A stretch of 64,000 nucleotides of DNA from Tetrahymena thermophila SB210 (taxonomy: Eukaryota; Ciliophora; Oligohymenophorea; Hymenostomatida; Tetrahymenidae). Each line of letters begins with the position of its first letter. Position 1 is the first letter of the stretch. A program made the translations under genes and the position numbers. Of the stretch, positions 16,201-47,231 are shown piece by piece. Under the pieces are notes generated by a model that was not told where the DNA came from, did not search any database, and saw only the letters and a list, made by a program, of their open reading frames with translations. The stretch spans positions 186,001 through 250,000 of the forward strand of contig NW_002476355.1 in assembly GCF_000189635.1 (NCBI RefSeq). Reading direction: 5' to 3'.

Positions 16201-19151
16201 TTAACTATTTCCAAATATTTTATATGCTTCATATGCTTAGACTAAAGGTTTTTCACCTTAAAAATGAGCGAATAAATTTCTTGATTTTAATAAACGCTTT
16301 ATTTTCTATTATCTTTTGACACTTTATTCTCACAATTTACTTCATACTTTTTTCTCAGTAAAAGGCATGTATTGTAATAATTTTCATCTAATAGAGTGTT
16401 ATCGTTTAAAAGAGCTTAAAGTAAAGGGATAAAGTTAAAAATATTCTGATTCTTGAGTTAGTCTAGTTAAATAAAAAAAATATTTTTATTAGTTCAAATT
16501 TTTGGAGAGATAAACAAATTTATCAATAAAATTAATTTATATTGAAAAAAATTTTAAGAAAAAAACATTCTATTTTTTTAGGAAAATAACTAATTTCTGA
16601 AAGAAAAAATAAATTAAAATGAATGATTTAATTAATTACTTAGAGTGTATTCTGAAGAGAAAATTTTTTCGTAGATTAAGCTACTTATTTCTGAAATTTA
16701 AAATAGTTCATTAAAGAAAATGTATTGCTTAGAGTCATTTATTCTTGTGATTAATGATGTTACACCAAAATCTTCTTTAAAATTTTCTATTTTTACATTG
16801 ATTGATACTGGGAAGACGAAGCCATTTCCGTTTAATGCAAATGCGTGTTTTAGACCTAAATTAAATTAAATAAAAAATAAGTGCCAAATTATTTATTGTA
16901 TGATATTTACCTGTAGAGAGTACTTAGGCAATACTTTCCATGTTAATAAAGTCATCCATAGTTAACTCATGTAATTAATATAACATTTTTGGTAGTAAAT
17001 TAGAAACATGCTTTCCTAGTACACTAATTTGATCGATTTCAAAGATAGAAGAAAAATTAGAAGAAGTTCTATTTATCTCGATATTTTTATTTACAAGACT
17101 GCAATATACAGAGCATGAATCAGGTGAAAATACATCTATTTAAGAAATTAATTAGCTTTTATTTTATTTTTGAGCAGATTTTTATTTTAGAATTTTTGGG
17201 GAAACACAGTAAAAATCAAGTGTCAATTAAAAGACAGATGATAGGCTATTTAAAGCTTAATCATTTGGGTGAATATCATAGAGTTCTTTTTGAATTACTT
17301 TGATATTTTAAATTCCATTTAAATTATTTTTAGAAACAATCATAAGTTCTTCCAAATTAAAGTAATCGGAGCAAAGATACTTGAAATATTCTATTTATTT
17401 CTATATTTATGTTTTAAGACTAGTTTAGAATTCAACCATAAGGAAATCAAAAGTAATAGGGTCATGCATTTTTATTGTTTGACTATGAATATCCTAATTA
17501 TATGTATACTGTTTGTATAATTTTTATGATCTTTCCATTAAAATTTATATGCAAAATAAATTTGCGTAATCTTTATGCTTGCTGTATTCCTGTTATATCC
17601 TCAAAAGCTCTTAGAAAGATTTAGTTACATTCTTTATTCTCTCTACCAAAAAGCTAATATATGATAAAACTATGTATTTTTTCTTAAAAGCTTCTACTTT
17701 ATTAAGGTAGTTGCTGTATAAATTGAGTATGTAATGAAGGGTGAATTCTTTTCTGAATTCTTATCCAATAACATTTTTAATATATCTTTCAAGAGGCTCT
17801 CCATTTTATTGGTCCTATTTTAATATTAAAGAATTAATTAATTATTCTTAATCTAAATTTATTTATTTTCTTTGATTATAAATCTAAATAATCAATTAGT
17901 TATTATTTTTTTACTGGAAGAAATCTTGAGCAAAAGCAGATTTATGAGGATTTCTTTTGATTGCATTAATTAATATGATTTACATATAAATTTTCAAAAA
18001 AAACTCCTTATTAATTCTATATGTAATCCTCATAAAAAAAGCTTGAATGATAACAAATAAGTCTAATAAAAGAGTCGAATTAATGTGGCGAAAGGTCAGA
18101 ATGATCTTCTCTGCATATGTTCCTTTGATAGTTTTTGTATTCAACAAATTTCTTTATATATTAACCAATTTTAGCAGATATTGGCGCAAATACTAACCCT
18201 AGAAAAGCAAATGAATTCACAGAGTTTACAATACTAAATAAAGCAACAATACTCAATAGCAGTTAAAAGCAAGAGAATTGTATATACATTAATGAAAATA
18301 GGGATTAATAGTATTTTTTTCTTTTAAAGTAAGTGCAAATTTTAAATACTGAAAATAAAAAGCAAAATATTAAAGAATATTTCTGCAATGTGATTTGGGA
18401 AATGCTGCAGTAAATACCAGCGATTATTTCATTAAAAACATCTGTCCTTGCAAAATCTTAAGATAAATAGTCAGAAACTTCGAATGAATAATCATAGTCG
18501 TGAGTTGACTAAAGTAAACCTTTTGTAATAAAATAAAACTTATTAAAATAAATATTAATTGATATTAAAATGTTTTTTTTAAAGTTTTGATTAAAATTTA
18601 CCTATTCCCCAAGTAAATAAATAGTTAAAGTAGCATATAATACGAATGCTAGAATTTGGATCAGAGGATAGGATTATAGTTGTGCATTCTAAGCTAGGAA
18701 GAAAAAGTATATAATTGTAAACAGAAAAGAGAAAAGATAGAATTTAACCCATTCTTTGTACTTTAGTTTTATCATACTAAATGAATGGAGAATAAGCAAG
18801 TAAAAATATCAAAGAAGCGATAATGAATAAATTTATCGCAAATGCGAAAGACAAAATAAAATATTGAGCATATCTTTCATTAACTAATAACTCTATAAAT
18901 CTATAAGCAGAACTCCATTATATAAGATTTTTAAAATAGTTTAACTAATCTGACTATAGCTCAGCTAGTTGAGTTCCATGATTTTAAAAGGCGATTGCTA
19001 TTTCCTATAGTTATCTAATAACAATAAGAACAATAGAAAGAGGAAAATTTCTCTAAAAGGATTTAAAAGCTATCCAAAAGATTTCTATATAAAACTAAAA
19101 AAAAATTGATTTTAACTAAACTGTAGTACTCATTTATAAATTCATTGTCAT
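13227..19151 (-). CDS. TmcB-like multi-pass membrane protein with PAS-like domain, copy 2
   Basis: Exons are 19151-18602, 18519-17915, 17814-16911, 16855-16640 and 16462-13227. They sum to 5511 nt (1836 aa) with introns of 82, 100, 55 and 177 bp. The layout is that of copy 1. N-terminal helices follow FYIEIFWIAFKSF, and exon 2 begins at HDYDYSFE. The PAS-like core carries VLGKHVSNLLPK and HELTMDDF. The membrane helix after RKITKNTDTGI-type sequence is clear at 15100-15225 (TGLLSIIALYSSVLSFYV). The C-terminal tail is SLYKKFKKEINKTRLLLTN. The linker has an Asn run encoded at 15417-15436. The start is uncertain: three in-frame ATGs (19151, 19145, 19133) lie close together, and none has the AAAATG context of copies 3-6. 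I chose the first because all three are in frame and nothing coding-like precedes it. The upstream motif shared by the other copies is absent or degenerate here. Confidence 0.86.
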
Positions 19152-20335: not shown

Positions 20336-23300
20336 TCACTAATTCTTAAAATATTGTAAAGTAATCTAGTTTTTAATGATCATGTCAATATTTAAATTAG
20401 TTAGAAGTAGCTTTGTCTCACTGATTTGCTTTTTAAATTTTCTATATAGAGATATCCATACTACTGTAATAGCTATAAAAATTAATAGCATTTAAATAAT
20501 CATTAATATTGTAAACATATTAATAATATATTTAATATACTACTCATTTTAATGCATAAAGAATTTTTCAAAGGAGAAAATTAATTATTGCAGAAGATTA
20601 TTAGATTTGTATATATCCAATAGATTGTTCTGCGTAAGCTATATTTTTACTATACTTTTCACTATCTGTGGTTGTAAATTATTTTAATTAGTTTGATTTG
20701 CTGAGAATTATTAGTACATTTTAAACCAATCTCTGTATAAAAAGATTAAATTTTGCATAGCTAATATAAATCCTCTTTTAAAATTACCACTCATCAATAC
20801 CTCACATTACTCCTTAGTTGTATGACTCTTAAAAAACTGGTTCTCAACTGTTTTATTATTTATTTACTCAATATTATTGCAAATATTTCCTAATAAAAAA
20901 CTATCAAAATGTATTTATCTTTAGCTCTAATCATATCTTGAACTTGTTTCGTAGTTTGTAAGGTTTTTTAGATTGTTCAGCACCTTTTCAGTTTACTTAA
21001 TAATATTCTAACCATATAAATAAAAAAAATTATCAGTAAATATTGGTTGATTTCCAATCATCTCCCAAATCTTATAATGAACAACTTCAAATTTTAAAAT
21101 AAACTAAGAAGAGGTAAGTAAAATTTCTCTTTAACTTAGTGTTGCTTAGAATTCATCTACAAATAAATTAACACTAATCAGATTAAAGAGAGGCTATACA
21201 ATAAAAGGACTAACTGCGAGTAAAGAAAGTAAAATATATTTGGTTTTAAAAGGTTTTGGTTTGCTAAAAGAAGCTATTTATCTTTATCTTTTAGTAATTT
21301 ATTTTATTTTTTTATCAAGAATAAGATTTTTCATATTATTTTGAGAATTCTATTTGATATTGATTTCATTTTATGTCTTTTACTCAGAATCAAAGGGTTT
21401 TATTAGCTGTTTTGTACTTAGAGATTTCATCGATTAAATTATATTAAAGGAAGAGTTGTATTAAACATTTTTTTAAATTTCCTTTTTTTGAAATTTTTAT
21501 AAATGGTTCAAATAAATAGTAAATAAATTGATGTATTATTGTAGAAGCGATGGAGGGAAAGTTCCTAAAAGTTTTAGTATCTGATATTACTGAGACTTAA
21601 AGTAAATCATGAAAGGTACAGCTATGACGATCAAACATAAAGCAGAAATCAATGTCTAAATAAATTAAATAAGTTATATTTCTTTAAGCTGTTTATAAGA
21701 TTTAACTAACTCATCAGATATTAATACTTAAATTTTTAGAATGGCTGCATTGAAAACTTCATTGTTGCCAAAAACCATTGATTGAGGATAGAATTCTTGA
21801 CGCTTTCCTTGTAAGTACAACTAATTTAAGCAAGATTAAAATAAGAGCATTGAGTACAAAATACTATGATTTCTTTTATTTATAGTATAAATTTTACGAT
21901 CCTAAAATTCACTCATCACAGATATTTAAGTTTCAGAAATATAATCAAAGAATTCTTCATTGTTTGCTTTTAAAATTTTGTTAATATTTTTACTATACTA
22001 ATTTATTGTTCTTCTTGAATGATTTCTGCTTATGTTAAATCTGTAAGCGAGTTCAGTAGTGTTTTATGAAATATTATAAGGGTTTGGTATTATGCGATTT
22101 AGTTTTAAAACATCTCTATAAATGAATGCGTTAATTTAAAATTCCTCTTCTTTCGAATATTAAAAAACTGATTCACTGATTACAGTTGCTGAACTGAATT
22201 TGCTGAACAAATCAGAAATTTTATTCAGATTACTTACATTAATAAAGTAAAATGTTAAAACACAAACTGATAAAAGAATTATTGACATCAAGCCTGTGAA
22301 AATTATCATTTTTATTATTCCAGAATTTGTAGTTTTAGTAATTTTTCTAATAATCCTCTTTCTGATAGATATTTATGAGCTTTAATTACCATCAATGGAA
22401 TATTTATCAACGTCGTAGAGGATTTTAATGCTGTTTTCGTTATTATTTTATAATTTATCAAAACATTCATTTTAGATATTTTGGCTATAAAATTACTTTT
22501 TAATTTATTATTCATAATCAACTGAAGATTCTTCTTCTTTAATGTGATCAAATTCTTTATTTTTATTATTTCTATCATTAAAGGCTATACTTTAAGGTGA
22601 ATCTGATAATTTATCTGCAAGAATTTAATGGATATTGCATATAGCATACTTAACACTGAAATTTTCACAATTTTTATCATTTTCTAAGTAAGCTGAAATA
22701 GATTATCTGTTAAGAGATTTTTAAAGTAAGTCATTTTTTAAAGAATTTTTGTATTTTTAGTTTGAAGGATCACAGTTTTTATCTAGTATTTAGCAAGCCA
22801 ACTGATTCGCACTACTAACATTAACACTAGATTATTAATTTAAATATCTATTTGATAATTAGTTTTCAATATTATTTATATCTTGCTTTGATAATATTAT
22901 TTCGCTATGCTATTCTTGTTAAGTTTACTTTGAACCTGAGTTGCTATGGTAAAAATGATCCCAAGAATTCTTCCTTCGACTCGAAATAAAATCTTCCAAA
23001 CCGCCAATATTCATGTAATATTATTATTCTTAAGTATATTGTTAAGTTTAGTTTAGTTATCCGTAATTTGAATTTGATGTAAACTCACCAAGTTGTTCTT
23101 CATTTTTTTTATTTTCATTTACTTTTTCAGATTGTTATTTTAAAAGTAAATTTTCTTTAACTCGTGGCTTTTTATAAAAATATTCTGATGATTTTTCATC
23201 ATAGCTCTCTTTTATTTCATCATCTTAAATTTAGAGTTCCACATTTAGACATTTTCTAAGCAAATTAAGCTAAGCTTATTTTCCAAATAATGACTTTTCT

Positions 23301-26153
23301 TCTGAAAAAGTTTAGACTTCCAAGTATTTAAAATGCTTCATGTGTTTAGATTAAAGACTCCTTATCTTAAATATAGCAGAAAATACTCTTTCATTTATAT
23401 TAACATAATTATTAAATCTTGATTAAGCTATATCTTGCTTATATTCCTTTCTTCTTTTTACTATAAAGCAAGAGTTGTAATAGTTTTCTTCAGATAAAGT
23501 TTAATCATTCAAAATTGCTTTAAGCAAGGGGAGAAATTTCAAAATTTGCTAGTTCTTTAATTAATCTATTTATTAAATAAAGAAAATATTTTTAAAAATA
23601 TTTCAAAGAAAGAAGTATTTTAATTGAAAATAATTTAACAAAGTTGGAATTTTTATCTTAAAATATGAATCAAATAATAAGCGCAAATTAATTAAATAAA
23701 TAAATTACTCAGTGAATACTCCTAAGAAAATATTTTTTCATAGATAAAACTGCTAATATCTGTGATCTAATATGACTCATTAAAAAATATGTATTATTTT
23801 TAGTCATTCACTCTTTTAATTAGTGCTGTGACACCGAAATCATCTTAGAGATTTTCTGTTTTTATTCTTATGTAGATAGGAAAAATGAAACCATTTCCAT
23901 TTTGAGCAAAAGCAAATCTCTCGCCTTGTTTTTAATAAAAAATTTTTTTACTTTTTAAATTTAAATATTGATTACCTGTGTTGATAATAGAGTCATTGTT
24001 CCCAAAATTGATAAACTCATCAATCGTTATTTCATGCGCATTAAACATCACTTTAGGTAACAAGTTAGAGACTTATTTTCCGACAACACTAGATTGTTCA
24101 ATTTCAAATATTTGTTAAAAATTCTTTGAAGTTCTTTTTATATCGATGGATTAACTAATAAGACTGCAATATACCGAGCAACATTAAGAAGAAAATACAT
24201 CTGTGATATTGCTAAATTGTATTTTATTTTATTACTGCTTTTAGTTTAGTTTTTTCTTTGTAGAATTATAAAAATCTAAACTAAACTAAAATATATGCGA
24301 AAGGCTGTTAAGGAGAGGATCTTTAGAATGAATATCAAAGAGTTATTTTTAAATACTGCCAATATGCTAAATGGATCTTAAATTATTTTTAGAAACACTC
24401 ATTAATTCTTCTAAAACGAAATAATCAGAGCATAGATACTTAAAATATTGAATTTATTATTAAATTTAAGATTTTAAACAAATTTAGAATTCAGATATTA
24501 AATTATCAAATTTAATTGGGTTGTGCATTTCAATTCTTTAGTTTTCATTTTTTGAATCTGTAGCATACTAATTATTTAAGTTATTTGCTGTGTTGATAAG
24601 ATTTTTTGTAAATATTAAATTAGTCCAGTCTTAATGTTTGACTTATTCTTATTGTATTTTTAATAGCTCTTAAAATGCTTTTGTATTATTTTTAGCTATT
24701 TCTATTAAAAAGCTTAAGTATGAAAAGACAATATACTTTTTATGAAAATAATCTACCTTATTTAAATAACTTTAATATAAATAAATGATGTAATTTAGCA
24801 CAAATTATTTTCTAGATTCTTGTCCTAAAATTCCTTCTATATTTCTGTCAAGAAAATGGCTATTAAATAAATCCTATTTTTAAATATTTAGATTATAAAT
24901 TTCGATAATAAATTGCATAAAAATTATTTAAATAAATTTACTGGCGCAAATCTCTAACAAAAGCAGAATTTCTAAGGGTTATTTTTTGAGCATGAATTTG
25001 TATGGTTAATAAATAAGCTTTCAAAAAAAACCCCTTATTTATACTCCATGTAATCTTCATAGAAATAATTTAAATTTTGACAAATTTATCTGATGAATGT
25101 ATCTAATTACTGAGGTGAGAGAAGAGAAAGATCTTCACAACAAATACTTATCTTATAAATAGTATCTTCCACTGATTTTTTTATTTATATTCCTAACTTG
25201 AATGATATAGGAATTATGGTTAATCCAAACAAAGCAAATGAATTTAAAGAGTTCAATTAACTAAAAAATGCAGCCAAGCAAATCAAAAATTAAAAGCATG
25301 TAAATTATATATGCATTAATGAGAAAAATTTGGAATAATATTTTTTCCTTTTTAAATAAGCTCCTATTTTAAGCAAGGAAAGGAACAAAAAGATCATCAA
25401 AGAATATTTTTGTTTTATGATTTATGAAATACAACAAAACAGACCAGTAATGAGCTCACTAAAAATATCAACTCTTGTGAAAGCTTTAGACAATTAATCA
25501 ACATCTTCAAAAGAATAGTCATAGTCATGCGTTGCTTATAGCATAGCTGTATATAAATTTAATTAAATTAATAAATTTGTTGGTGGGCGAATGAGTATAA
25601 ATTAATGCTTACCTATTCCCAAAGTTAAAAAGAAATTTATATAGCATAAGATGTGAGTGGATAGAGAAATTTCCGATTTGAGCATTATGGTGGTAACTTC
25701 TATACTAGGAAGATAGAAAAAATAATTATAGGTAGAGAAAATAAATGACGGAATTAAGGTAATTCTTTTAATTTAGGAATGATCGTATTTTATAAAAGGA
25801 GAGTAAATCAGTAGACCCAAGCTATAAATAAGCAAAAATAAATTAATACTCAATAAAAATGTAAAAGCAATATCTTGAGCAGTGTTTATATCTAGTAATA
25901 GAGTTAAAAATCTGTAGATTGAGCTGCATGATAGAAGCTATTAAAAATATTGTAGCTAATATGATTAAAACTTTGTCATTTGAGAGCCATCATTTACAAA
26001 AGCTATGCTTAGTTGCTATAATTTTTTAGCTATCATTAGAACTAAAGAAAGACTGAAATTTCTATGAAAAGACCTGAAAGCAACCCAAAATATTTCTACA
26101 TAATATAAACTAAGCAGGGAATTAAATAATTTGCTTTTTTTAAAATTATTCAT
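20336..26153 (-). CDS. TmcB-like multi-pass membrane protein with PAS-like domain, copy 3
   Basis: Exons are 26153-25613, 25546-24942, 24873-23976, 23924-23709 and 23565-20336. They sum to 5490 nt (1829 aa) with introns of 66, 68, 51 and 143 bp. The start (AAAATG, MNNFKKSKLF) matches the usual ciliate context. Approximate layout: residues 18-55 amphipathic (YYVEIFWVAFRSF); membrane helices about 105-130, 140-160 and 168-185; more helices in 200-300; cytosolic helices 380-600; PAS-like domain about 610-750 (VVGKQVSNLLPK, HEITIDEF, DDFGVTALI, QITDISS). A variable acidic and polar linker follows, then helices near 1160-1195, 1385-1410, 1520-1545 and 1765-1790. The C-terminal tail is SLYRKFKKQISETKLLLTN. 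Function is unknown. By analogy with PAS membrane proteins it may sense a ligand or the cell's state; this is inference. Confidence 0.88.
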
Positions 26154-28329: not shown

Positions 28330-29230
28330 GGAAATGATAAATTAATTTAATTGTTATTTGTAATATTAATATAATTAAAATGAAATATCAGACTTTATGA
28401 TTGTATGCTTTTAAAAAATTTTAAATTATTTTTACTAAAATATATATGAAAGTAAGTATTGTTTTCATAATTTAAAAAAAAATAAAATATTTTATAAATT
28501 TTTAAAAAATTTGTAAAAAAATCTAATTAGAGAATAATTGTAGATATTATTAATTTTCCCTCCCCTTAATACTGTACTATTAAATAGAAAAATATAAAAA
28601 ATAAAATATTTTTATAATATTTAAGTGCAATAATTACTAGAATATTTTCAACATATGACTAACTGTACTATTCTCTAGTTCTTTTAAGTGCATATTTTAA
28701 ATTGGAATATTTATATTAAATGATGAATGCTATACCAACTTTTTTATGATATCTCATCATAAAAACATATTTATAAGTTAATATTATTTATTTATTCTTT
28801 TCATCCAGTTTAATTAAATTAAACTTTCATTAATTGCTGCTATTCAATATTTTTAAATAAAAAAAAATGATATAATAGAATAAGAAATACTAGTCATTCG
28901 AAACAGTAATTATTAATTTTTTAAGAATATTATTTAAATTTATTTTTTTTAATAAAAAAAAGTTTATAAACTCTTCGCTCTATTCCCAATAAGATGTTGA
29001 AATTAATATGAGGTTTGTTTAATTAATAAAGATTATTATTATTATTATTATTTTCAATATAATTAATTTTTCAATTTATTTAAAAATGCTATTTTTCTAA
29101 TAGAAATTCTCAACTTTTTTCATTCATTTTTATTTAAGATATATTTTTTTAGTTATTTTAAATTCATTTTTAATTTTGATTAATATTATTCATTATTCAT
29201 TTTATTATTTAATATTTTTTTTAAAATTTT

Positions 29231-29290
29231 TTACTTTAACACTTACTTTTACTTTAAAAAATCATTTATTTTGTTTTGGATTGAATTTTT
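29231..29290 (+). pseudogene. Eroded LRR module (module 0)
   Basis: This stretch aligns by eye with the exon-end/intron-start joint of the intact modules. TTTAACACTTA matches the exon end TTTGACACTTA, and TTTATTTTGTTTTGGATTG matches the conserved intron start TTTATTTGTTTTGGATTG. The leucine-rich coding part before it is no longer recognisable and the GT donor is gone. It looks like a decayed first copy at the left edge of the array. Confidence 0.4.
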
Positions 29291-29396
29291 TTAATTTAAT
29301 TATTTATGTTTTCAACTTTTACTTTATTTATTTATTTACTAACTAACTAACTATCTAACAAATTATTTATTTACTTTTTCTTCCATATTTAAAAAG

Positions 29397-29486
29397 TTAT
29401 ACTTATGTTGGTAAAATTGATGCTTCAGGCTTAGGTTCTGCTTTAGCAAATCGCACTAATCTCTCAAATTTGGCAATTGATGTTAG
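29397..29486 (+). CDS. LRR exon 1
   Basis: 90 bp; motif VGKIDASGLGSALANRTNL. It departs most from the consensus at its start and has Arg where other modules have the conserved Cys. The intron that follows is 278 bp. Confidence 0.7.
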
Positions 29487-32400
29487 GTAAAAACAGTTTA
29501 TTTGTTTTGGATTATGATATTTTTAGTAATAAATATGAATTTAAAACAACAAAACTCATTAATTTATTATATTGAATTTTCGATTTATTTTTTATTGTGC
29601 TTGCGTTTTTTTTCATACTACTTTTCTTAATTTTACTTATTTTTTTATTTTCGAATTTGCTTTTATTATAAATTAATTAATTTCTTATTATTTCATATTT
29701 TTTCTATATTTTTTCCTTCTAACTAACTAATGAATTAAACATTTTTTATTCCATATTTAAAAAGTTACGATTAAATTGGTGATTAAGGTGCATCTGATTT
29801 AGGTTCTGCTTTTAAAAATTGCGCTAATGTCTCAAATTTGACCCTTAATCTTACGTAAAAATAGTTTTGTTTTGGATTGTGATATTTACAGTTATGAAAT
29901 TAAATTAATTTAAAACAATATTTCTCTTTTAATTTATTTATTAGTTTTTATTTGATTTATTTTTCTTTTTCTTTTTCTTTATTATTCTAGTTGTGCTTCT
30001 TTTTTTTTATTTTTCTTAATTTAACTCATTTATTTTTTTATTTTCAGCTTTTGTTTTTTTTTTAATTAATTAATTTCTTGTTATTTCATATTTTTTCTAG
30101 TTTACTCTTTCTAACTAACTAATTAACTAAATATTTTTTCTTCGTTATTTAAAAAGTGACAATTAAATTGGTAATGAAGGTATATCAAACTTATGTTCTG
30201 GTTTAGCAAATTGCACTAATCTATCAAATTTGACACTTTATCTTCGGTAAAAACAGTTTACTTTTTTTGGATTATGATATTTTTAGTAAAAGAAATAGAT
30301 GGATTTAAAACAATATTACTCTTATAATTTGTTTACTAGCTTTTTATTTGGCTTATTTTTTATTTTCTTTTTTATTATAATAATTGTGTTTTGATTTGTT
30401 TTTTCTATCTTTGTTAATTTAACTCATTTTTTTCATTTCAATTTTTGCTTTTATTAGTAATTAATTTATTTCTTATTATTTTATATTTTTTCCTTTTAGC
30501 TGATAGACTTATTAATTATATATTTTTCTTCAATATTTAAAAAGTTAGAATTAAATTGGTGAATTTGGTGGATTATGCTTAGGTTCTGCTTTAGCTAACT
30601 GCACTAATCTCTCAAATTTGAAACTTTATCTAAGGTAATAACAGTTTATTTGTTTTGGATTGTGATATTTTTAGTTATAAAAATGAATTAAAAACAATAG
30701 AATTCTTTTAATTTTTTTTTCGATTTTTATTTAATTTATTTTTACTTTTATTATCATTGTTTTTTTTTTCTTCTATTTTTCCATTTTTTTTCAAATTTTG
30801 CTTTTAATATAAATTAATTCATTTTTTATTTAATATTTTATTTTATTTCTTCTTTTTTCCTTCTAAATAATTAATTAATTATTCATTTTTTCTTTAATAT
30901 CTAAAAAGTAAGAATTAAATTGGTGATAGAGGTGTGTCAGGCTTAGGATCTAAATTAGCAAATTGCACTAATCTCTCAGATTTAACACTTGAACTTATGT
31001 AAAAATAGTTTATTTGTTTTGAATTGTGATATTTTTAGTGAAAAAAAAATAAATAAATTTAAAACAATATAACTATTTTAATTTGTTTATTAGCTTTTTA
31101 TTTTATTTTTAATTTTTGTTTTATTTTTTTCCTTTGTATCTTTCTTAATTAAACTAATTTTTATATTTAAATTTTACTTTTGATATTAATTAATTCATCT
31201 CTTATTATTTCATATTTTTTCTACTTTATTCCTTCTAACTAACTAATTTATTAAATACTTTTTCTTCAATATTTTAAAAAGTGGCAGTAAAATTGGTGAT
31301 GAGGGTGTATAAGGCTTAGGTTCTGCTTTTTCAAATTGCACAAATCTCTCTAATTTGAAACTTCTACTTAGGTAAAAATAGCTAATTATTATTGGATAAT
31401 AATATTTGTAGTTATTAGCTTTAAATAATTTATTTTTCTTTTTCTTGTTTATAAGAATTGTGTTTTTTTTGCTTATTTTTTTATTTTCAAATTTTAATTT
31501 TATTATTAATATATTTATTTCTTATTATTTTATATTTTTTCTTCCATTTTACTTCAAACCTACTTACTTACTTACTAACTAAAAAACTAATTAATTAAAT
31601 GTATTTTATTAAATATTTAAAAAGTGGCAATTAAATTTATGCATTTGGTGCATAAGGCTTAGGTTCTGGTTTGGCAAATTGCACTAATCTCTTAAATTTG
31701 ACACTTGATCTTAGGTAAAAACAATTTATTTGCTTTGATTGTAAAATTTTTAGTTATAAAACGAATTTAAAACAATATAATTTTTTTATTTGTTTATTAG
31801 CTTTTTATTTAAATTATTTTGTTTATTGATGATTTTTTCTTCCTTTTTTCCTTCTAACTTATTAATTAATTACATATTTTTTCTTTAATATTTAAAAAGT
31901 GTCAATTAAATTGGTACATTGGGTGCATCAGAGTTAGGTTCTGCTTTAGCAAATTGCACTAATCTCTCAAATTTGACACTTAATCTTATGTAATAACAGT
32001 TTATTTGTTTGTTTTGGATTGTGATATTTTTAGTTATAAAAATGAATTTAAAACTAAAAAACTTTATTAAATTTGTTTATTAGCTTTTTATTTTATTTTA
32101 TTTGTTTATTAAGATTTTATTTTATTATTTTTCTCTTCTATCTTTCTTAATTTAGCTGCTTTTTTATATTCAACTTTTACTTTTATTTATTAATTAAATA
32201 TTATTTTATATTTTTTCTTTACTTTTTCCTTCTAACTAACTAATTAATTATAAATTTTTATTTCAATCTTTAAAAAGGTACAATTAAATTGGTGCGATCG
32301 GTGCATTAAGCTTAAGTTCTGGTTTAGCAAACTGCACTAAACTCTTATATTTGAAACTTGGTCTTAAGTAGTTTATTTTTTTTGGGTTGTTATATTTTAA

Positions 32401-32669
32401 TATATACAAATAAATGAATTTAAAACAAAATAATTGTTTTAATTTGCTTATTATTTGATTTATTTATTTTTATTCTGCTAATTTTTTTTTATTTATTAAT
32501 TTTAAATATAATTTTTAATTTAAAATTTTTGTTGTATTTAATTGTTTTTGTAATTTATTCTACTTATAATAAAAGTTTTAACGAAATCAATGAATCATAA
32601 TAATAATGGAAAGTTAAAAACAATTGTCTCAAACTAAAAAATTTAGTTGTTCTTCAAATACAATTCTGA
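29397..32669 (+). CDS. Leucine-rich-repeat protein gene, one repeat per exon (5' end unresolved)
   Basis: Ten exons can be read: nine of exactly 90 bp and a terminal one. Each 90-bp exon follows an AAAAAG acceptor, encodes 30 residues of the form xNQIGDxGAxxLGSALANCTNL followed by SNLTLxL, and ends at a GTAA/GTAG donor. All introns are phase 2, so the modules join in frame in any number. The terminal exon ends LKLKNLVVLQIQF-TGA. The repeat resembles ribonuclease-inhibitor-type LRRs common in ciliate hypothetical and kinase-linked proteins. No kinase or other domain is visible here. About 300 residues are readable. No start exon was found, so the gene may be 5'-truncated or may begin with an unrecognised exon farther left. 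It lies on the opposite strand from the membrane-protein array and splits it three and three. Confidence 0.72.
29765..29854 (+). CDS. LRR exon 2
   Basis: 90 bp; motif IGDQGASDLGSAFKNCANV. Gln codons TAA are used at consensus Gln positions. The intron that follows is 302 bp. Confidence 0.72.
30157..30246 (+). CDS. LRR exon 3
   Basis: 90 bp; motif IGNEGISNLCSGLANCTNL. The intron that follows is 298 bp. Confidence 0.72.
30545..30634 (+). CDS. LRR exon 4
   Basis: 90 bp; motif IGEFGGLCLGSALANCTNL. It uses TAG as Gln at its start. The intron that follows is 274 bp. Confidence 0.72.
30909..30998 (+). CDS. LRR exon 5
   Basis: 90 bp; motif IGDRGVSGLGSKLANCTNL. The intron that follows is 283 bp. Confidence 0.72.
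31282..31371 (+). CDS. LRR exon 6
   Basis: 90 bp; motif IGDEGVQGLGSAFSNCTNL, with TAA as Gln inside the motif. The intron that follows is 253 bp. Confidence 0.72.
31625..31714 (+). CDS. LRR exon 7
   Basis: 90 bp; motif IYAFGAQGLGSGLANCTNL. The intron that follows is the shortest, 185 bp, and lacks part of the sequence shared by the others. Confidence 0.72.
31900..31989 (+). CDS. LRR exon 8
   Basis: 90 bp; motif IGTLGASELGSALANCTNL. The intron that follows is 288 bp. Confidence 0.72.
32278..32367 (+). CDS. LRR exon 9
   Basis: 90 bp; motif IGAIGALSLSSGLANCTKL. Its donor is GTAGTT rather than GTAA. The intron to the terminal exon is 208 bp. Confidence 0.7.
32576..32669 (+). CDS. LRR terminal exon
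   Basis: After an AAAAG acceptor the required phase (one base, then whole codons) gives 30 sense codons and TGA at 32667-32669. The end NCLKLKNLVVLQIQF fits a last, capping leucine-rich repeat. Three consecutive TAA codons read as Gln. This exon makes the array a gene with a real 3' end rather than a loose set of repeats. Confidence 0.65.
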
Positions 32670-33869: not shown

Positions 33870-36800
33870 TCATTTTTATTTAAAATATTTTAATGCTAGC
33901 TCATTTTTAAGAATCATGTCAATATGAAAGTTAGTTAAAAGTAGCTTTATTTAGCTGATTTCTTTTTTAAATTTTTTGTAAAGGGATACCCATACTACTG
34001 AAATAGCAAAAAAGATTAATATCATCTGAGCAATTATTAATATTGTAAATACCTCAATTATATACTCAGAGTATTTCTCGTTTTAGTTTAAAAAGAAGTT
34101 CTCAAATGAGAAAATTAATTACTGTATAAGAATGTTCGAATTTTAAATATCAATAAGATTATTTTTAGTAAATTGTAATTTTATTATGCTTTGTGTTACA
34201 TTTTGCTACAAGGAATTTGTTTCAGTCTGTATTGCTGCATATTATTCGTACATAAAAAACCAATCTTTGTATAAATTTGTTAAATATTCAAATGATAATA
34301 TGAATCCTCTTTAAAAACTACCACTTAATAATTTTTAGCATTATTAACTGGTTAAGCGGCTTTTCAAATAAAAATTTTTTGTTTATTCTATATTGATCTA
34401 ATCAATATAATTGCATACGTTATCCAATAGCAAATTATCGAAGTATATTTATCTTTGAGAATAGTCGTATCTTGAGCTAGTTTCATAATTTGTTAGGCTT
34501 TTTATGCCATCCATGACATTTTCAGTTTACTAAGTAACATTTTTTCCAAATAAATAAAAAAAGTTGAAATTAAAATACGGTTGAACAAAAGCTATTTCCC
34601 AGATCTTATAATGAACTACTTAAGAGATAAGAATAAATTATGAAGCACTTAAAAGAATTTATCTTTAAGTTAACGCAGTTAGCGATTCATCTACAAATAA
34701 ATTAATACTTATTAAATTAAAAGCTGGATGAACCATGAAAGGCAATATTATTAATATAGAAATTAAAACGTATTTGAATTTAAAAGCCTTTTCTTTGCTG
34801 AAAGATGCTATTTGCCTTGATCGTTTAGAAACTTGCTTAGTTTTAAATGATGAATCAAACTATTTAATATTGCTTAAGAAATTCTATTTATTATTATTAT
34901 TACTCTCTTACTATTATATTTAAGAGTCAAATACTTGCAAAAGGTGATTTGTACTTATTGACTTCATTGTTTATTTTAAATCGAATTATTAACTTTTTAT
35001 TTTATTTTGATTTTCCTTTTTTTCAAATTATTCTAAATAGCTGGAATAAATGGTAAGTATATTTATGTAATACTGCAAAAGGGAAGGAGGAAACGATCCC
35101 AAAAGCTTAATTATTTAGTATTATTGAGACTTAAAATAAATCAAGAATGGAACTGCAATAATTACTAAGCAAATTCCAGAAACTAATATCTAAATTAATT
35201 ACTCTAATTAGGTTTATTTAAGATTTTCATATTAGTTAATTAGTTAATCATTAATCATCACTTGAATTTGTGATACTGCACTGTTAAAGACCTAAATGTT
35301 TCCAAAAACAACTGATTCAGGGTAGTATTCGCCCTTGATTCCTTGCAAGTATAACTAATTCAAACATGACTGAAATAAAAGCATAGTGTATAAAATCGTA
35401 TTATTCGCAACTTAGTGAGTATAAATTGTATGATCATAAAAATCACTCATTGTTTATATCTTAGTTTCTGAAATATATTTAAAGAATTCTTCATCTCTAG
35501 ACTAAAGAATGTTATTAATATTTTTGCTAAATTACTTAACTGCATTTATTGATTGATTTTTACTAATATTTTATCTGAAAGCTAGCTCAGTAATATTTTT
35601 GGAAGGATCTGAAGGATCCACCATTAAGCGATTTAAATTTAAAACATTTTAAAAATTAAAAGCAATTATTGAAAAAGACTGTTCTTTGGTAAATTAAAAA
35701 ACTGATTCGTTTATTATTGTAGCAGAATTAAATTTTTTAAACAAATTTGAAATAGAATCCAAATTATTTTTATTCAAAAAATAAAAGGCTAGAACACTTG
35801 CTTAGAGAAAAATAATTGAGGTTAAACCTGTGAAAATAATAATTCTTATAATTTAAGTATTCTAGTTTTAAGTAATTTTATTTGTGATTCTTTTTCTCAA
35901 AGACAATTATGTGCTTTTGTTCCCATTAAATGAATTTTTATAATATTAATCTTCTTCATTGATCGGAATAATTTTTTTTTACTTTTTAACATAATTATTT
36001 GAGTTATTTTTGAGGATTTATTTTTTAATATACTGGCTTTTGTTTATTGAAAACTCTTCATCTCTAATGTTTGCCTATACTTAATTTCTTATTTATTTAT
36101 TTTTTTAAGAAATACTTTAATTTGAATCTGAAGATTTTTCTGCCTAACTCTAATTAAAGCTGCTAATAATAAAAGGTTTATAATTAATATTTTAACAATT
36201 TATTGTATTATTCACATTGATATTAGATTATTGGTAGATATTTAATGATTTTTAATGCAATTAATTAGTGTAAATACTTTTTTATTTCAGACTAGAAAAA
36301 TCTTAACTTTTATCTAATGTTGAAGAGGAAAAACAATTAATATTTGATTAATTCTAACGAGAATTAGGAATTAAAAATCTATTAGATTAATTAAATAAAT
36401 ATTAAAAGCTGTTTATTTCATGCTTTGAAGATAAAATTTCACTTTGTAATTCTTACTAACTCTATTTTAAAGCTGAGTTATTTTAAAGATACTTATATTA
36501 AGAGTTTATTCTTTCTGTATTTATATTTTCTTCTCTCCCTATCTCATTAGTATTTATATTCGAAAACTTACTACAAACATTTAATTAAGTGTAATTTTCC
36601 AAATTATTATTTTACTCTAACTTAGAATTATTAATAAATTCTTCATTTTTTCCAAAGATCTTCTAATTATCTAAAGATAATATTTAGAATATATCATCTT
36701 TAATAGGCGAGTAGTCTTAAATTTCTGAATTATTTTCATTATTTTTTTAACCAATTTCATCTTCTTAAAATATAAAATCTATATTCAGATGCCTGCTTAA

Positions 36801-39686
36801 TAAATTAAGCTAGGTTTTTTTATCTAAAATAGATTTTTATTCTGTAAATTCTTCAATCTCTAGGTATTTAATATGCTTCATATGCTTTGATTAAAGACTC
36901 CTTATCTTAAATACTAAAGAGAATATTCTATCTTCATTTTAAATGGTTTTTTATATAAAGGTTTAAAGTTTTGCCAATTTTTAATTCTTTTTATAAGTCT
37001 TTTTGAGCAGTAGGCATGTTTAATACAAATTTTCTTCATCTTCTGTTTACAGGAGAGCTTTATTTTCTTAAATCTACCCAAGCAACGGAATAAAATAACA
37101 AACTAGCTTATCCTTCAATTCGTCTTTTTTAATAAAATAATATTTTTTAATAAAAATGAATGATAAATAATTAAATATTTTTAAATTAATTTTTATAAAT
37201 TTAATTTTCTTAAAAGCAGATAGTGAAAATGAAATAAATTACTTAATGAATAATCTTCTGAAAATATTTTTTCATAAATGAAGCTACTGATGTCAGTGAT
37301 TTAAAACGATTCATTAAAAATGATATAATGTTTAGAATCTTATATTTTTTTAATTAAAGTCGTTACACCGAAATCATTTGAGAATTTTTCAGTTTTTATT
37401 CTTATATTTATTGGAAATATGAAGCCTTTACCGTTTAAAGCAAATGTAAATCTCTCACCTATTTAAAGATAAAAGTATTTTTTTATTTAATTTAGTTATA
37501 ATTTAATTACCTTAGTTTAAAACACAGTCAATGTTTCCAAAGTTTATAAATTCATTAACTGACAATTTGTGAGCGTCATGCAATACCTTTGGTAGTAAGT
37601 AAGAGGTATCTTTTCCAATAATGCTAATTTATTCCATTTCGAATATTTACTCAAAATTTTTTGAAACTCTTTTAACGTCAATTGATTAACCAATAAGACT
37701 GCAGTAAACTGAGCAACACTATGGAGAAAATACTTATTCTTAAAAAGCATATTATTTTTAATTCTAATCTTGCTATTTTTTCAACTTTTTCCTAGAAAAA
37801 TTATAAAAATCTAAAGTAATTTAAAATATTTGTGAAAGGTTGTTAAGAGCATAATTATTTATATGAATATCATATAGTTATTTTTAAAGAGCTCTAACAT
37901 TTTGAATTCCATTTAAATTATTCTATGAGATATTTATAAGCTCGTCTAAATTAAAGTAATCCGAACAAAGATATTTAAAGTATTCTATTTATTTATAAGT
38001 CTATGTTTTTAAGCTGAATTAGAATTCATTCATAAGCGCATCAAAAGTAATTGGGTCATACATTTTAATTTTTTAATTTTCACTTATTTAATGAACAAAA
38101 TTCTAGCTATCATATGAAGAAACTCTATCAATAAGAATCTTTGTATAAATTAAACAGCTCCAATCTTTATGTTTGGTGAATTCTTATTCTATTTTTAACA
38201 GCTCTTAATATGATTTATTTGCATTTCTTGCTTGCTCTATTAAAAAACTTAAGTATGAAAACACAATATACTTTTTATGAAAATAGTCGACCTAATTTAA
38301 ATAATTCTAATATAAATTAATTATGTAATTCAACACAAACTATTTTCTGAATTATTATCCTAAAATATCTTCTATGTTTCTGTTTGAAGGATAACTGCTA
38401 AACTAGTCCTAAATATATTGAAGAGAAATTTAATTGTTTTTTTTTTTTTTTGAAGAAGAGAATATTAAAATTTATCAATTGAAATTACTGGTGTGAATTT
38501 AGAGCAAAAGCAGAATTATTAAGATTTGACCTTTTGACATTAATTAATGTGATTAATGTATAAGCTTTCAAAAAAAACTCCTTGTTTATGCTCCATATAG
38601 TCTTCATAGAAATAATTTTAATTTTAACTAATCAGCCTAATAAATATATCTAATTAATGAGGTGAAAAGTTAGAGAGATCTTCACAGCAAATACCCATTC
38701 TATAAATATTTCTTTCGACCTTCTTTTTTAATTATATCCCTAATTTGGCAGATATAGGTATTATGATCAACACAAAGAAAGCAAATGAATTAGAAGGGTT
38801 TAAAAAGCTAATTAATGCAACGATACTAATTAGCAGTTGGAAGCAACAGAATTAAGCATAAACTAAAGAAAAAAATAGTGAATAATATTTTTTTCTATAA
38901 AAATAAGCACAAATTTTGAATAAAGAATAAAACAAAAAAATTATCAAAGAATATTCTTATTTCGATATCTAAGATAGAAAACAGCAAACACCAGCTATGA
39001 GATCAATTAAAATATCAACTCTGGTAAAAGCTTTAGATAATTAATCAGTATCATCAAAGGTATAATCGTAATCATGAGCTGCCTAAATTAAAGCTTTAAG
39101 AGAAAAAATTAATAAATTTGTTGACTGGTTGTAAATTAATTTTACCTGTTCCCCAAGTAAAGATGAAATTCAAATAGCATAATATATGAGTTGAAAGAAG
39201 AGAAGAAGTGCTAATCATTATTGTAGTGGCTTCTAAACTAGGTAAGAAAAGCAAATAATTATATACCGAGAAAATAAATGATGGAATTAAGCTTATCCTT
39301 TTTAATTTAGCATGTTTATTTTTTATAATCCGAGAGTAAATGAATAAACCCAAGCATGAGAAAATCAAAAATAAATTGATGAATAATGTAAAAGTGAAAG
39401 ATATAGTTTGAGCTGTGTTTATGTCAAATAATAACTAGAAAAGTCTATAGAAGGAGCTGTATTAAAAAAGCTATTTACAATAATTAAGCTGTTCTGTTTA
39501 GAGCTCTGTAATTTTAACTCCATTGTTTACAAAAGCCATATTTAACTCTTGGAAGAATCTTAAAACAATAAGAGCTAAAGAAATAGAAAAATTTCTTTGA
39601 AAAGACCTAAAGGCAACCCAAAATATTTCAACATAATATGAAGTAAAAATAGATTGAATTTAAGCCTTATCCTTAATAGTATTCAT
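33870..39686 (-). CDS. TmcB-like multi-pass membrane protein with PAS-like domain, copy 4
   Basis: Exons are 39686-39146, 39093-38489, 38408-37511, 37458-37243 and 37123-33870. They sum to 5514 nt (1837 aa) with introns of 52, 80, 52 and 119 bp. The start is AAAATG (MNTIKDKAQIQ). N-terminal helices are plain in exon 1 (LFLIFSCLGLFIYS, SVYNYLLFLPSLE). The PAS-like core reads IIGKDTSYLLPK then HKLSVNEF, so its central residues differ more from the other copies. Exon 4 keeps the 216-nt length. The linker is Asn/Ile-rich. The C-terminal helices end in SLYKKFKKEISQIKLLLTN. Intron 2 has a 14-base T run (plus strand). This is the first member to the right of the LRR gene and has the shortest intron 4. 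Function is unknown, as for the other copies. Confidence 0.87.
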
Positions 39687-41423: not shown

Positions 41424-44400
41424 TCATGGATTCTTAAAATACTATTAAGTTACCTAGTTTTGAATTATCATGTCTATGTGAAAGTTAGTTAAAAGTAGCT
41501 TAGTTTCACTGATTTCTTTTTTAAATTTTTTGTAGAGAGACATCCATACAACAGAAATAGCGAAAAAGATTAATGCAATCTAAACAATCATCAGTATTGT
41601 AATCATTTCTATTATATAATTGGTGTATTTCTCATTTTAGTTTAAAAAAAAATTCTCAAATGAAAAAATTAATTATTAGATTAGAAAATTAGAATTATAA
41701 ATATCTATGAGATTATTCTTTGTGTACTACTAGCCTATAATGCTTTAGGTTATATTTGATCTCAAATCATTACTTTCGGTTTAAATAACTGAGTATCCTT
41801 CATATACAGAAAACCATTATTTGAATAAATTAGCTAGGTATTAAAAAGATAAAATAAATCCTCTTTAAAAATTTCCATTCAATAATGTCTAACATTGCTA
41901 TCCATGGGTGTGAACCTTAAAATATTTATTACATAATGTTTGGTTATTAATTTAATCCAAATAGCTGCATACATCATCCAATAATAATCTATTGAAATAG
42001 TTTTCCCTTTAGCTAGAATCATATCTTTCATTTGTTTCATAATTTGTTAGGCTTTTTATTTGACTTAAGATTTTTTCATTTTACTTTGTCAGATATTTTC
42101 CAAAAACGAAAAAAAAATTTTATTTCAAAATAGGCCCATAAAATGCCATTTCCCATATCTTATAATGAACAACCTCGAAACTTAAAATATGCTAGGATGA
42201 GCTTAGTAGAATTTCTCTTTATTTTAATGAAATACTCGATTCTTCTACAAATTAATTTATGCTAATTAGATTAAAAGTAGGATAAACCATAAAGGGACTG
42301 ATAGCTAATAATGAAAGTAAAACATATTTGGTTCTAAAAGGTTTAGGCTAACTAAAAGAAGCTATTTATCTTTGCCTTTAAGGAAATTTTATTTAGTTAT
42401 TCGAAGCATCATTTTTATTTGAATTTTTAGTAATTGTTTGATTTTAACTATTTTCTTTTTTTCTTTTTTATTTTTAGCTCTTTTAAGAATCAGCCACAGC
42501 TGTAATAAGCTGTTAAGAACTTATTGATTTCAATGACTACATTAAATTAAAATTGTCTTGATTTTTATTTTCAGTTTGTGTTTTTTGAAATTCATCTAAA
42601 TGATTCAAATAGATGTTAAATAAATTGATATAGTTCTAGAGTAGCTTAGGAGGAAATGTTCCTAAAAGCTTGAGAATTTAGTATTATTAAGATTTGAAGT
42701 AAAACATGAAAGGAACAGCTATTATTATTAAGCAAGTTGCAGAAACCAAAGTCTAAATTAACTAATATAATTAAGTTTATTTGAATTTGATGTAGAGTTT
42801 TATTAATTGATCATTTATCATTGTTTAAATTTTTTAAATAGAGACATTAAATAGTTAGAAATTCGTAAAAATAACTGATTCAGGGGTATATTCTTGATTA
42901 TTACCTTACAAGTAAAGCTAGTTCAAGCATGATTATATTAGCAGCATGGAGTATAAAATTGTATTGTTAGAAACTTATCTAGTAAATATTGTCTAATCAT
43001 AAAAATCACTGGTTGTTTATATTTCAGTTTATGAGATATACTAAAAGAATTCCTCATCTTTAGATTAAAAGATTTTATTGATGTTTTAGCTGTATTGCAT
43101 AACTGCCCTTTTTGAGTGGTAATTACTAATACTTTGTAAGTAAGAAAGTTCAGTTATGTTATTTGAAGTATCAAGGGGATTAATTATAACACGATCTAAA
43201 TTCAAAATATTCTAAAATACAAAAGCATTATTGGAAAAACCTTATTCTTTGAAGAATTGAGAAACAGACTCTTTGATTAAAGTAGCATAGTTAAATTTGT
43301 TAAATAAATTAGTAATTTAACTTAAGCTACTTAAATTGATAAAATAGAAAGTTAAAGTGATAGCTTATAAAAAAATGATTGATGTGAAACCTGTTAAAAT
43401 AATTAACCTAATAATCCTATTGTTTGTGTTTTAAGTTATTTTTTTGAAGATTTTTTTCTTTATTGACAATTAAGAGCCTTAAAAACTATTTGACGCTTGA
43501 TATTATTCTTCTTATTAATTGAATTAATTATCATTTTTATTTTCGTTCTTTTCATTTTTAAAAGGTTTTTTTAGTCTTTAATCATAATCAAGAGAAAGTT
43601 CTTCTTCTTCCTAAATATTTTCAAATTTGTTTTTTTAGTAGTTTTTATGATTTAATGCTATGCTTAATGGGGAATCTGATGACTTATCAATATTCACTTA
43701 ATTAATTTGAAACCTTATATGCTTTGCATTAATACTCTCATTATTATTCTAATTATGAATTTTATTTGCTTATCTTATCTATGGCTATTATGAAATAAAA
43801 GAAGTCTTTAAGATACTTTTCTGTTTTATATTTGAATTATCTTAACTTTTATCAAATGTTGAGGAACCAATCTAGTTAAGGCTATTAAGATTTATATGAG
43901 ATTGAGTATTTATAAGTTTATTAGATTAGCAAAACAAATGCTGAAAGCTGTGTAATTCCTACCTTGAAGTTAAAAACTCGCTATTTTACTCAAATTAACT
44001 CTATTTTGAAGCTGAATTAACTTGTTAGAAATTACTATCATTTAAAGCTTTGCTTTTTAGGTTCGTAAAATCTTCTCTTGGTATTTCGATGTTAGTATTT
44101 GTTGTCTAATCCTAAATATTTGTCTATGATTAGCTTTCTAAATTATTTCTTGAATCTATTTTAATATATGTAGGTTATCCTTAATTTCTTTAACAATCTT
44201 TTATGTAAGTTGGAAATATAGATAATTAATTTTCTTGAATGGTTGATCCTATTTATTAAAGTGAAATATTTTCCTAGCTTTCTTTAAATATATTATCATC
44301 AAAAAGTTAAAAATCAATATTTAATTATAAACTTAGCTAATTGAGCAAATTTTTCTTGCTCAAATAGGTTTTATCTTCTGAGAACTCTTCTATTTCTAAA

Positions 44401-47231
44401 TATTTAATGTGTCTCATACGGTTAGATTAAAAATTTTTTATTCTAAAAGCAATAGAAAATAGCTTTTCCTATTAATACATTTATTATTTTAAACATTATC
44501 TAAATAATGTAATATCCTTTAATGTCTCTTTTCTTCTTTTTAATAAAAGACTTGACTCATAATAGTTTTCTTCAGATTAATTTTTATCATTCATAATTAC
44601 AAGAATTAAGGGAATAAAGTTAAAAAGTAGCTGATCCTTTAACTATCCTGTTTAAAAAAATAAATTTTAAAAGTTATAAAAATGAAAGCTAAAAAAAAAT
44701 TTTATTAAAAGCAAAATTTCAAATTTCAATATTGTTAAAAATTATTCTAAAGTAAGAAAAAATAGAATTGTTGAAAAGAAAGAGAAATGAGATGATATAA
44801 ACAAAATGAATTTACTTAATGAATACTCTTGTGAAAATACTCTTTCATAAATAAAGCTGCTGATTTCAGTAATTTAAAAGGACTCATTAAAAAATATATA
44901 TTACTTTAGGTCACTTCCTTTTTTGATTAGAGCTGTAACTCCAAAATCATCTAAAAATTTTTCTGTTTTTATTCTTATACTGATTGGAAATATGAAACCT
45001 TTTCCATTCAAAGCAAATGCAAATCTCTAATCTAATTTAAATAAAATATTAATTAATTAATTAATAATATATTTTTAATTTACCTGTACTGATCAATGAA
45101 TCCTTATTTCCTAAATTGATATATTCACTAATTGTCAATTCGTGTACTTCATGTAAAATTTTTGGAAGTAACTCAGAGATTTATTTTCCTAAAACACTGG
45201 CTTAATCTATTTAAAATATTTGTTAGAAATTCGTTGAAGTTCTTTTAATTTCAACGAATTGGCTAATTAGACTAAAGTAAATTGAGCAGTACTAAGGAGA
45301 AAAAACATCTTCTAAATCAAAATTTAAAGTTTGTCTTAGTTTTTTCTTTGATTTCACATTTAAATTAGAAGTATTGTAGAAATCCAAACAAATCTAAAAT
45401 ATTTGTGAAAGGTTGATTAAAACAGAGTCTTTAGAATTAAGAGCGTAAAGTTAATTTTAAATGACTCTTAAATCCTAAATTCGATTTAAATTTTATTAAG
45501 AATTTTTCAACAGCCCTTCTAATTTAAAATAATCTTAACATAAATATTAGAAATATAGTATTTACTTCTATAGCTATATTTTTAAGCTATTTTAGAATTT
45601 ATTTATTAAGATATCGAATGTTATTGGCTCATACATCTATATTTTTTCGTTTTTATTTTTTGAGTTTGTAAAATAATTATTTTCATCTAATAAAGTTGCA
45701 TTATTTATTAGGTTTTATATATATATTAAGCTTGTCCAATTTTTATATTATGTGCATTCTTTCTGCGCTCTAAAAAGTTCTTAGAATGAATAAGTTACAT
45801 TCCTTGTCTGTTCTATTAAAAAGCTTAAGTATGAGAAGAGAATATTCTTTTTCTGAAAAAAATCAGCTTTATTCAAATAATTCTTGTATAAATTAATAAT
45901 TTAATTTATCATAAATTATTTTCTGAAGTCTTAGCCCAAAATATCTTTTACATTTGGAGAGTGGCTATCCTTTTTATAAGTTAAATTGCTTTAATATAAT
46001 TGAATTATGATATTAAAATTTGATACTTGAGTAAATTATGAACAAAAACAGAGATTTTGTGCATCATTTTTTGAACATTTGCTTATGTGATTTATATAAA
46101 GGCTTTCAAAAAATACTCCTTGCTTACGTTCCATATAATCCTCATAGAAATAATTTGTATTTTAGTAAATAAGTCTAATGAAACTATCTAACTAGTGAGT
46201 TGAAAAAACAGTGAGCTCGTCATTGTAAATTCCCATTCTGTAAATATTTTCTTCAACTTTTTTTTAAATTTATATGCCTAATTTTAGTGCTATAGGAATA
46301 GTGATAATTTGAAACATAGCAAACGAATTCTAATTGTTTAATAGACTAATCAAGGCAATCAGACATGAAAGAAACTAAAAGCATGAAAATTATATATACA
46401 TTAATGAAAAAAATTGGGAGTAGTACTTTTTTCTTTTAAAGTAAGCACAAATTTTAAATAGGAAAATGAAGACAAAGACAATCAAAGAACATTTCTATGT
46501 TATAATTTGCGAGAGACAGCAATAAAAACCAATAATCAATCCATAAAGTAGATCAATTCTTGTAAAAGCTTTAGATAATTAATCAGAATCACCAAACGAA
46601 TAGTCATAATCATGTGTTACTTATATAAAAGCTATTTAAAATATTTAATTTTTATTATTTATTTGTAATAGAATAAAATAAATATTTTACCTATTCCCCA
46701 AGTAAAAAGGTAATTTAAATAGAACAATATGTGAATAGAGGAAAAAATATGAGTTTTGAGCATTATAGTAGTAACTTCTAAACTTGGAAGGAAGAGAATA
46801 TAATTATAAATAGAAAAGATGAATGAAGGTATTAAATTCAGCTTAAAAATATTTCTATGATTTTATTTAAAATAAGGATATAAAAATAAAAAACACAAGC
46901 AAGAGATAATCATAAGCAGATTTATGCCAAATACAATAGCAAATGTAATCATTTTAGCAATTTCTATATCTAGAAATTGAGCAAATAGTCTGTACACTGA
47001 ACTCCATTGTATAAGCTTTTTAAAGTAATTTAATTGATCAGATTATAGCTCAGACATTTAAGCACCGTCATTTACAAAAACTACTGCTAATTCCTGAAGC
47101 TACCTTATAGTCATAAGGATTATAGAAATAGAGAAATTTCTACTAAAAGATCGATAGGCAACCCAAAAAATCTCAATATAGAATGAAATTATAATGGATT
47201 TAGAATGATTTTTATCATCTATTTACTTCAT
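41424..47231 (-). CDS. TmcB-like multi-pass membrane protein with PAS-like domain, copy 5
   Basis: Exons are 47231-46691, 46631-46027, 45969-45084, 45031-44816 and 44647-41424. They sum to 5472 nt (1823 aa) with introns of 59, 57, 52 and 168 bp. The start is AAAATG (MKQIDDKNHSKS), then FYIEIFWVA. The intron 2 acceptor is the AAAAAG before GATAGCCAC; an AG 13 bases upstream is out of phase. Exon 3 is 12 nt shorter than in copies 3, 4 and 6 because of in-frame differences. The PAS-like core is VLGKQISELLPK then HELTISEY. The membrane and linker layout is that of the other copies, and the C-terminus is TNFHIDMIIQNQ followed by about ten residues. Function is unknown. Confidence 0.86.

Follow-up and report, generated by a model that had tools for sequence, protein, structure and literature searches.

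A leucine-rich repeat gene with nine 90-bp exons in Tetrahymena and the variable exposed face of its family

Is a run of nine equal exons, each encoding one leucine-rich repeat (LRR), a complete and living gene, and how did its repeats come to be so alike in some positions and so different in others? These questions are raised by an array on the plus strand of the window, that is, the whole 64-kb stretch of contig NW_002476355.1 (positions 186,001 to 250,000) that was analysed. Our results make it very probable that the locus is an intact and apparently complete gene of the Tetrahymena group III family with 90-bp exons, and that it has evolved in the mode proposed here. As a more tentative proposal, to which we give somewhat less than even chances, Tetrahymena thermophila would hold a very large LRR-only repertoire, in which ligand-facing residues are renewed about an order of magnitude faster than the adjacent introns through exchange of modules combined with diversifying selection.

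Nine 90-bp exons and the gene they form

The nine LRR exons announced in a preliminary description of this DNA, each exactly 90 bp long and bounded by phase-2 introns, were all recovered, at 29397-29486 (YTYVGKIDASGLGSALANRTNLSNLAIDV), 29765-29854, 30157-30246, 30545-30634, 30909-30998, 31282-31371, 31625-31714, 31900-31989 and 32278-32367, the last of them beginning with G rather than T and followed by the donor GTAGTT. AG stands before and GT after each exon, so that all 18 splice-site dinucleotides are present, and the phase-2 frame is free of TGA in all nine under the ciliate code, whose reading of TAA and TAG as glutamine is needed for the exons to be open. The eight inner introns measure 185-302 bp (median about 280), and seven of their acceptors end in TTTAAAAAG, the remaining one in TCTAAAAAG. 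Between 28001 and 32999 the pattern AG-N90-GTR occurs nine times, in every case at one of the nine modules; 500 first-order Markov shuffles gave a mean of 1.5 and a maximum of 6 occurrences, none of them with an LRR-like motif. A module profile run over the whole window returned the nine known modules and no tenth at expectation values (E) up to 0.1. The resemblance among the introns that had been remarked on earlier is borne out by the eight units of exon plus following intron, which are 74-84% identical to one another, and the modules are interchangeable in frame, in line with the earlier claim that any number of them can be added, lost or skipped. The absence of TGA was rejected as coding evidence, since 28% of neutral simulations were likewise TGA-free.

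Phase 2 also joins the modules to a first exon and to a terminal exon of 94 bp at 32576-32669, translated as FNEINESQQQWKVKNNCLKLKNLVVLQIQF and closed by a TGA stop. This in-phase terminal exon had been taken as support for a real gene. It has 20 BLAST matches in the window and the fetched loci: 17 of them, the window included, have an AG acceptor, the same phase and a TGA after 88-100 bp, 15 of these 17 with an acceptor ending in AAAAG, and the other three lack an AG near the expected place. The span of 29397-32669 originally given to the gene covers the modules and the terminal exon and misses the gene start, the first exon lying at 28867-29012. The spliced model has 11 exons (first exon, nine LRR exons and terminal exon) and encodes an LRR-only protein of 349 amino acids, which matches the Pfam families LRR_6 (E=2.3e-11, 43.3 bits, cut-off 23.4) and LRR_5 (E=1e-6, 29.1 bits, cut-off 27.7) and no non-LRR Pfam family at E up to 0.001. 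Among its sequence matches in PDB are the LRR proteins DRC5, radial spoke protein 15 and RanGAP. Judging by what is known of the fold and by the pattern of substitutions, the protein would adopt a ribonuclease-inhibitor-like (RI-like) LRR arc.

Tandem 90-bp LRR exons with phase-2 introns characterize a huge exon-shuffled Tetrahymena family (Xiong et al., 2019, PMC6564038). According to the main text of that paper, thousands of genes with this layout occur across Tetrahymena species including T. thermophila, for which 1,874 LRR genes were reported. The layout, itself a showcase of exon shuffling, the phase and the exon size are therefore already known, and the array is not an isolated oddity. 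As far as the main text describes them, group III genes resemble the gene studied here in their exact 90-bp tandem exons (three or more by criterion, nine here), phase-2 introns, LRR protein, nucleotide-level similarity across many loci and probably the species, and nothing essential was found to differ. The same text reports that the family grows by unequal exchange in the germline, and by extension our gene would have grown by unequal exchange between its modules. It further reports gene-level ratios of nonsynonymous to synonymous rates (Ka/Ks) below 1, expression of many LRR genes alongside low expression of species-specific genes in axenic medium and, in the germline genome, physical association with the retrotransposon REP, and it suggests bacterial recognition as the function of the family (PMC6564038). 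A further mark of group III genes would be enrichment in pericentromeric or subtelomeric parts of germline chromosomes.

Variation of the exposed face and constraint on the window copy

The residue profile of 226 modules (the nine of the window and 217 distinct modules of other arrays) is two-sided, and the LRR strand in it reads L25 x26 L27 x28 L29 x30 x1 N2. Entropy at the buried positions 25, 27, 29 and 2 was 0.14-0.71 bits, as opposed to 1.64 (26), 2.71 (28), 3.38 (junction codon 30) and 3.66 bits (1) at the exposed ones, and the loop residues 6 and 7 that follow the strand reached 2.08 and 3.01. In RI-like LRR proteins the x positions of the strand face the concave side. The concave face of the predicted protein would thus comprise strand positions 26, 28, junction 30 and 1, together with loop 6-7, and would be diversified by selection.

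In order to remove age as a cause of these differences, the comparison was restricted to young pairs, namely the 175 of 12,269 module pairs, from arrays other than the window, with less than 5% difference in each of the two flanking introns. Although introns differed by only 3.5% in these pairs, the proportion of nonsynonymous differences (pN) was 0.42 at the exposed codons 26, 28 and 1 and 0.41 at the loop codons 6-7, compared with 0.04 at the buried codons and 0.04 at the remaining codons, where the proportion of synonymous differences (pS) was 0.03; pS at the exposed and loop codons was 0.22 and 0.50, values inflated at multiply changed codons by the counting method. When the 21 pairs of arrays were resampled, exposed pN ranged over 0.29-0.48, buried pN over 0.04-0.09 and intron divergence over 0.031-0.039. 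Similar results were obtained in a half-intron control (20 pairs), for which pairs were chosen by one half of the intron and divergence was taken from the other: the unselected half of the introns differed by 3.4%, the variable groups by 39% and 23% and the framework by 3.8%.

Block changes across codons 6-7 (DE to AI or AM) were seen in modules whose introns differ by less than 1%. These changes, with which the high pS is also in line, point to exchange between modules as the source of much of the variation. Crossovers inside exons were considered as the source of hypervariability and rejected; linkage of an exon end to its own intron would be expected from them, and no clear linkage was seen. 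The excess at the exposed codons we read as probable diversifying selection on a ligand-facing surface, and the contrast between a slowly changing framework with equally slow introns and nearly saturated exposed residues points to recognition rather than structure. The concave face would bind variable partners, food or pathogen molecules being the most likely kind, and for such a recognition role we consider the chances to be about even. If rapid renewal of the ligand-facing residues is correct, a single cell would possess a modular recognition repertoire in which a fixed framework carries a hypervariable surface, following a logic comparable to that of immune receptors. The contrast between framework and exposed residues also provides a testable functional claim, making the ligands of a very large LRR family approachable from sequence.

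Constraint on the window copy itself was assessed by comparison with the consensus of the other arrays and 2,000 neutral simulations. No insertion or deletion (indel) was found in 720 aligned sites of exons 1-8, where 24.3 were expected from introns matched for homopolymer context (P about 3e-11), whereas the introns held 67 events in 1,852 sites. The raw substitution level was 15.8% in exons and 17.4% in introns; with base composition allowed for, the nine exons carried 131 substitutions where 185 (standard deviation, SD, 11) were expected. At the 19 skeleton residues, which were defined from the other arrays, changes were seen in 25 of 171 cases compared with 77.5 (SD 6.1) under neutrality, while the four hypervariable residues were changed in 28 of 36 cases compared with 15.6 (SD 2.9), an excess that in the window rests on the consensus ancestor at sites without a good consensus. 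The window array is under coding constraint.

An RI-like LRR arc with variable exposed strand residues is a property of NOD-like and other LRR recognition proteins, and would be common to them and the protein described here; the PDB entries 5irl and 5irm, listed as uncharacterized protein, are presumably NOD2. Unlike NOD-like receptors, the 349-residue model contains no NB-ARC, NACHT, kinase or other domain that Pfam could find. Another comparable system is that of the brown-algal ROCO genes, for which 72-bp phase-2 LRR exons, exon shuffling, splice variants and diversifying selection are reported (PMC11378527). One LRR per exon, phase 2 and exon shuffling are common to both, so that the algal genes appear to work similarly as an independent case in another lineage, with 72-bp exons and a ROC-COR GTPase there and 90-bp exons with only LRR Pfam families here (no ROC-COR domain was found by Pfam in the 349-residue model). 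Hypervariable exposed residues, positive selection, a shared first exon and a fused first intron were not found by term searches in the main text of PMC6564038, and none of the titles listed in literature searches concerned the surface variability of Tetrahymena LRR proteins, which leaves absence from print unproven. The variability of the exposed face and the common 5' end described below are therefore probable additions to a known family and not proven firsts.

Relatives, array history and the shared 5' end

A search of the 101.0-Mb assembly (445 contigs) with one window module stretch gave at least 193 matches, 40 of 1,636 candidates having been scored, and at least six of those listed lie inside the window array. 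Listed matches other than the query were 72-81% identical to it, the closest other places among them reaching 80-81%. From the telomerase reverse transcriptase (TERT) gene of this genome, two stretches, about 100 and 134 residues long, align without internal mismatch with chain A of PDB 6d6v, which we take to be from T. thermophila. For comparison, 20 other stretches matching a window module were used, which were among the best matches and are hence biased towards young, intact arrays. Over these and the window (21 loci), 229 of the 241 modules detected are intact, that is, 90 bp long with AG/GT borders and no TGA. T is the first base in 201 of these 229 modules, so the split codon is set almost only by the upstream module, and modules can therefore usually be joined in any order without creating a new junction residue.

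The window modules are not plain copies of their neighbours. The nearest relative lies in another array for seven of the eight window units, and for the eighth another array and its own are tied to three decimals; over all arrays, the nearest relative is in the same array for 112 of 191 units. Since the smallest clade holding all eight window units contains 189 of the 191 compared, a simple history of tandem duplication within the window was rejected. With units 74-84% alike and nearest relatives elsewhere, the window array is, to judge from these comparisons, an older, mixed array. A second array on the same contig (L012:385-6105, about G000:C182:382385-388105), with 17 modules detected and 17 intact, is much younger, because between some of its modules introns of 260 bp show just 2-4 base differences.

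At the 5' end, the window has a first exon of 146 bp (28867-29012), consisting of an ATG, 48 codons in all plus 2 nt and the phase-2 donor GTTTGT, and a first intron of 384 bp (29013-29396) that can be aligned with the leader regions of 13 further arrays. The alignment of upstream regions thus reveals a leader common to 14 arrays, the window included, with an open first exon and a phase-2 donor, as exemplified by locus L037 (MIQQIKKYNKLEEVIIYFFINILQIYINQQKKFLSSSLLSHQVLHIDL). A first-exon model made from 41 copies, excluding that of the window, matched 28867-29007 with E=8.7e-16, the next match in the window having E=1.5. First exons were then counted in 52 copies, namely the 14 aligned leaders and the 38 other full-size copies that were listed when the genome was searched with one of them (40 of 612 candidates scored, which biases the added copies towards similar ones). 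An intact first exon with ATG, open frame and in-phase end is present in 43 of the 52; the count demanded a GT donor for the 38 copies and not for the 14, yet GT is present in all 14. In the 44 copies of 146 bp, TGA occurs in none in frame 0 and in 43 and 23 in the other two frames.

In six of the 20 other loci the profile of the repeat unit starts to match within the first intron, at a point some 12-16 bp short of the end of an exon, and in four loci a weak match (6-11 bits) to the earlier intron part directly precedes it. This first intron probably arose by fusion of two introns, with the stump of a lost module between them: an old deletion would have removed the acceptor and most of the exon of one module and brought its two introns together. 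Within the window, the match of the profile to this intron is confined to the last 53 bp (29344-29396, 9.1 bits), so that for the window the stump rests on the alignment of the 14 leaders. If this reading is correct, the 5' ends of these arrays would descend from one ancestor. A weak LRR-like stretch at about 29220-29290 was considered as a decayed tenth module and rejected, as it is part of the 5' region common to other arrays in the 14-leader alignment, where the first exon precedes it; the loss of the module would accordingly predate the window array. Loci L009 (about 3050-3170) and L012 (about 60-185) share an extra stretch upstream of the first detected module, just before the part that matches introns; this could be what is left of a transposon, for instance the published REP tail.

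Alternative readings and the neighbourhood of the gene

The pattern at the variable codons could also arise if these codons were mainly generated and not selected, by short-tract conversion between modules or by targeted mutation of exons. The blocks across codons 6-7 beside nearly identical introns would fit such a process, as would the raised pS, a feature not predicted by simple amino-acid selection, the inflation noted above being borne in mind. However, the interleaved codons 25, 27, 29 and 2 stay near the intron rate, so a mutator would need to target individual codons in register with the fold of the protein, and neither exon end is clearly linked to its adjacent intron; we therefore regard this explanation as unlikely. 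Regulated exon skipping, an idea raised in the preliminary description, by which one gene would yield many proteins with different sets of repeats, is favoured by the fact that every module can be skipped in frame, by a split codon that hardly depends on the downstream neighbour, and by the splice variants of the brown-algal genes (PMC11378527). Skipping is possible in every symmetric array, so the layout by itself does not speak for it, and the term alternative splicing is absent from the main text of PMC6564038; as a generator of diversity, skipping appears improbable.

That the array is dying, a former LRR gene and now a pseudogene that looks regular because its modules decay slowly, might be argued from the divergent first exon, the odd donors GTTTGT and GTAGTT and the raw exon substitution level close to that of the introns. 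Such decay is hard to reconcile with exons 1-8 free of indels beside introns rich in them, with strongly retained skeleton residues, with module splice sites, start and stop that are all present, and with the expression of many LRR genes of the family stated in the main text of PMC6564038, and we judge it very improbable. A non-coding tandem repeat or transposon-associated satellite that merely resembles exons is almost inconceivable: the association of the family with REP in the same text speaks for it, while the exact 90-bp length next to introns of variable length, the protein-level pattern of conserved and variable residues and the Pfam LRR match all speak against it.

The reading preferred here, an apparently complete and constrained gene of the 90-bp-exon family with a diversifying exposed face, also has to face several observations that weigh against it. 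The gene model was read from genomic DNA alone, divergence among the nine exons by codon position is flat (0.245, 0.241, 0.236) and gives no useful signal, and the consensus served as ancestor in the neutral simulations. The 175 young pairs come from 12 arrays, with 59 from a single one, and window modules do not figure among them because the identity of window units to any other unit does not exceed 86%; the raised pS at the variable codons belongs here as well. The inner introns are, by their median, longer than the peak of 257 bp given for T. thermophila introns in the main text of PMC6564038. In the first exon, pN/pS is 0.90 in the coding frame compared with 0.76 and 1.23 in the other frames, which is no clear coding signature, and codon-position bias carries little signal. 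Within the window this exon is a divergent copy whose donor is unusual, and in the alignment with its relatives two 1-bp length changes compensate each other, so that the exon keeps its length while its middle part reads differently. Finally, nine of the 52 first exons (L013, L019, L020, L025, L026, L031, L053, L063 and L067) lack ATG or GT or have a frame change or stop, so that some arrays have probably died or have another start.

On the minus strand, opposite to the LRR gene, runs a series of six related long open reading frames (ORFs; 6113-9709, 13227-16493, 20336-23602, 33870-37271, 41424-45092 and 48401-51733), and the gene occupies a gap between two of these copies. Each of the six contains an NYETSSRY-like and an IASFSxxKPF-like stretch, and they are arranged in tandem with companion ORFs. 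Pfam searches of nine flanking minus-strand ORFs, two of the six included, gave no match above cut-off and one below it (thresholds of E 0.001 for three ORFs and E 0.01 for six). The same series ends with a long ORF rich in asparagine and glutamine (56847-60404, minus strand), which contains an IASFN stretch, has no Pfam match and is perhaps a divergent relative.

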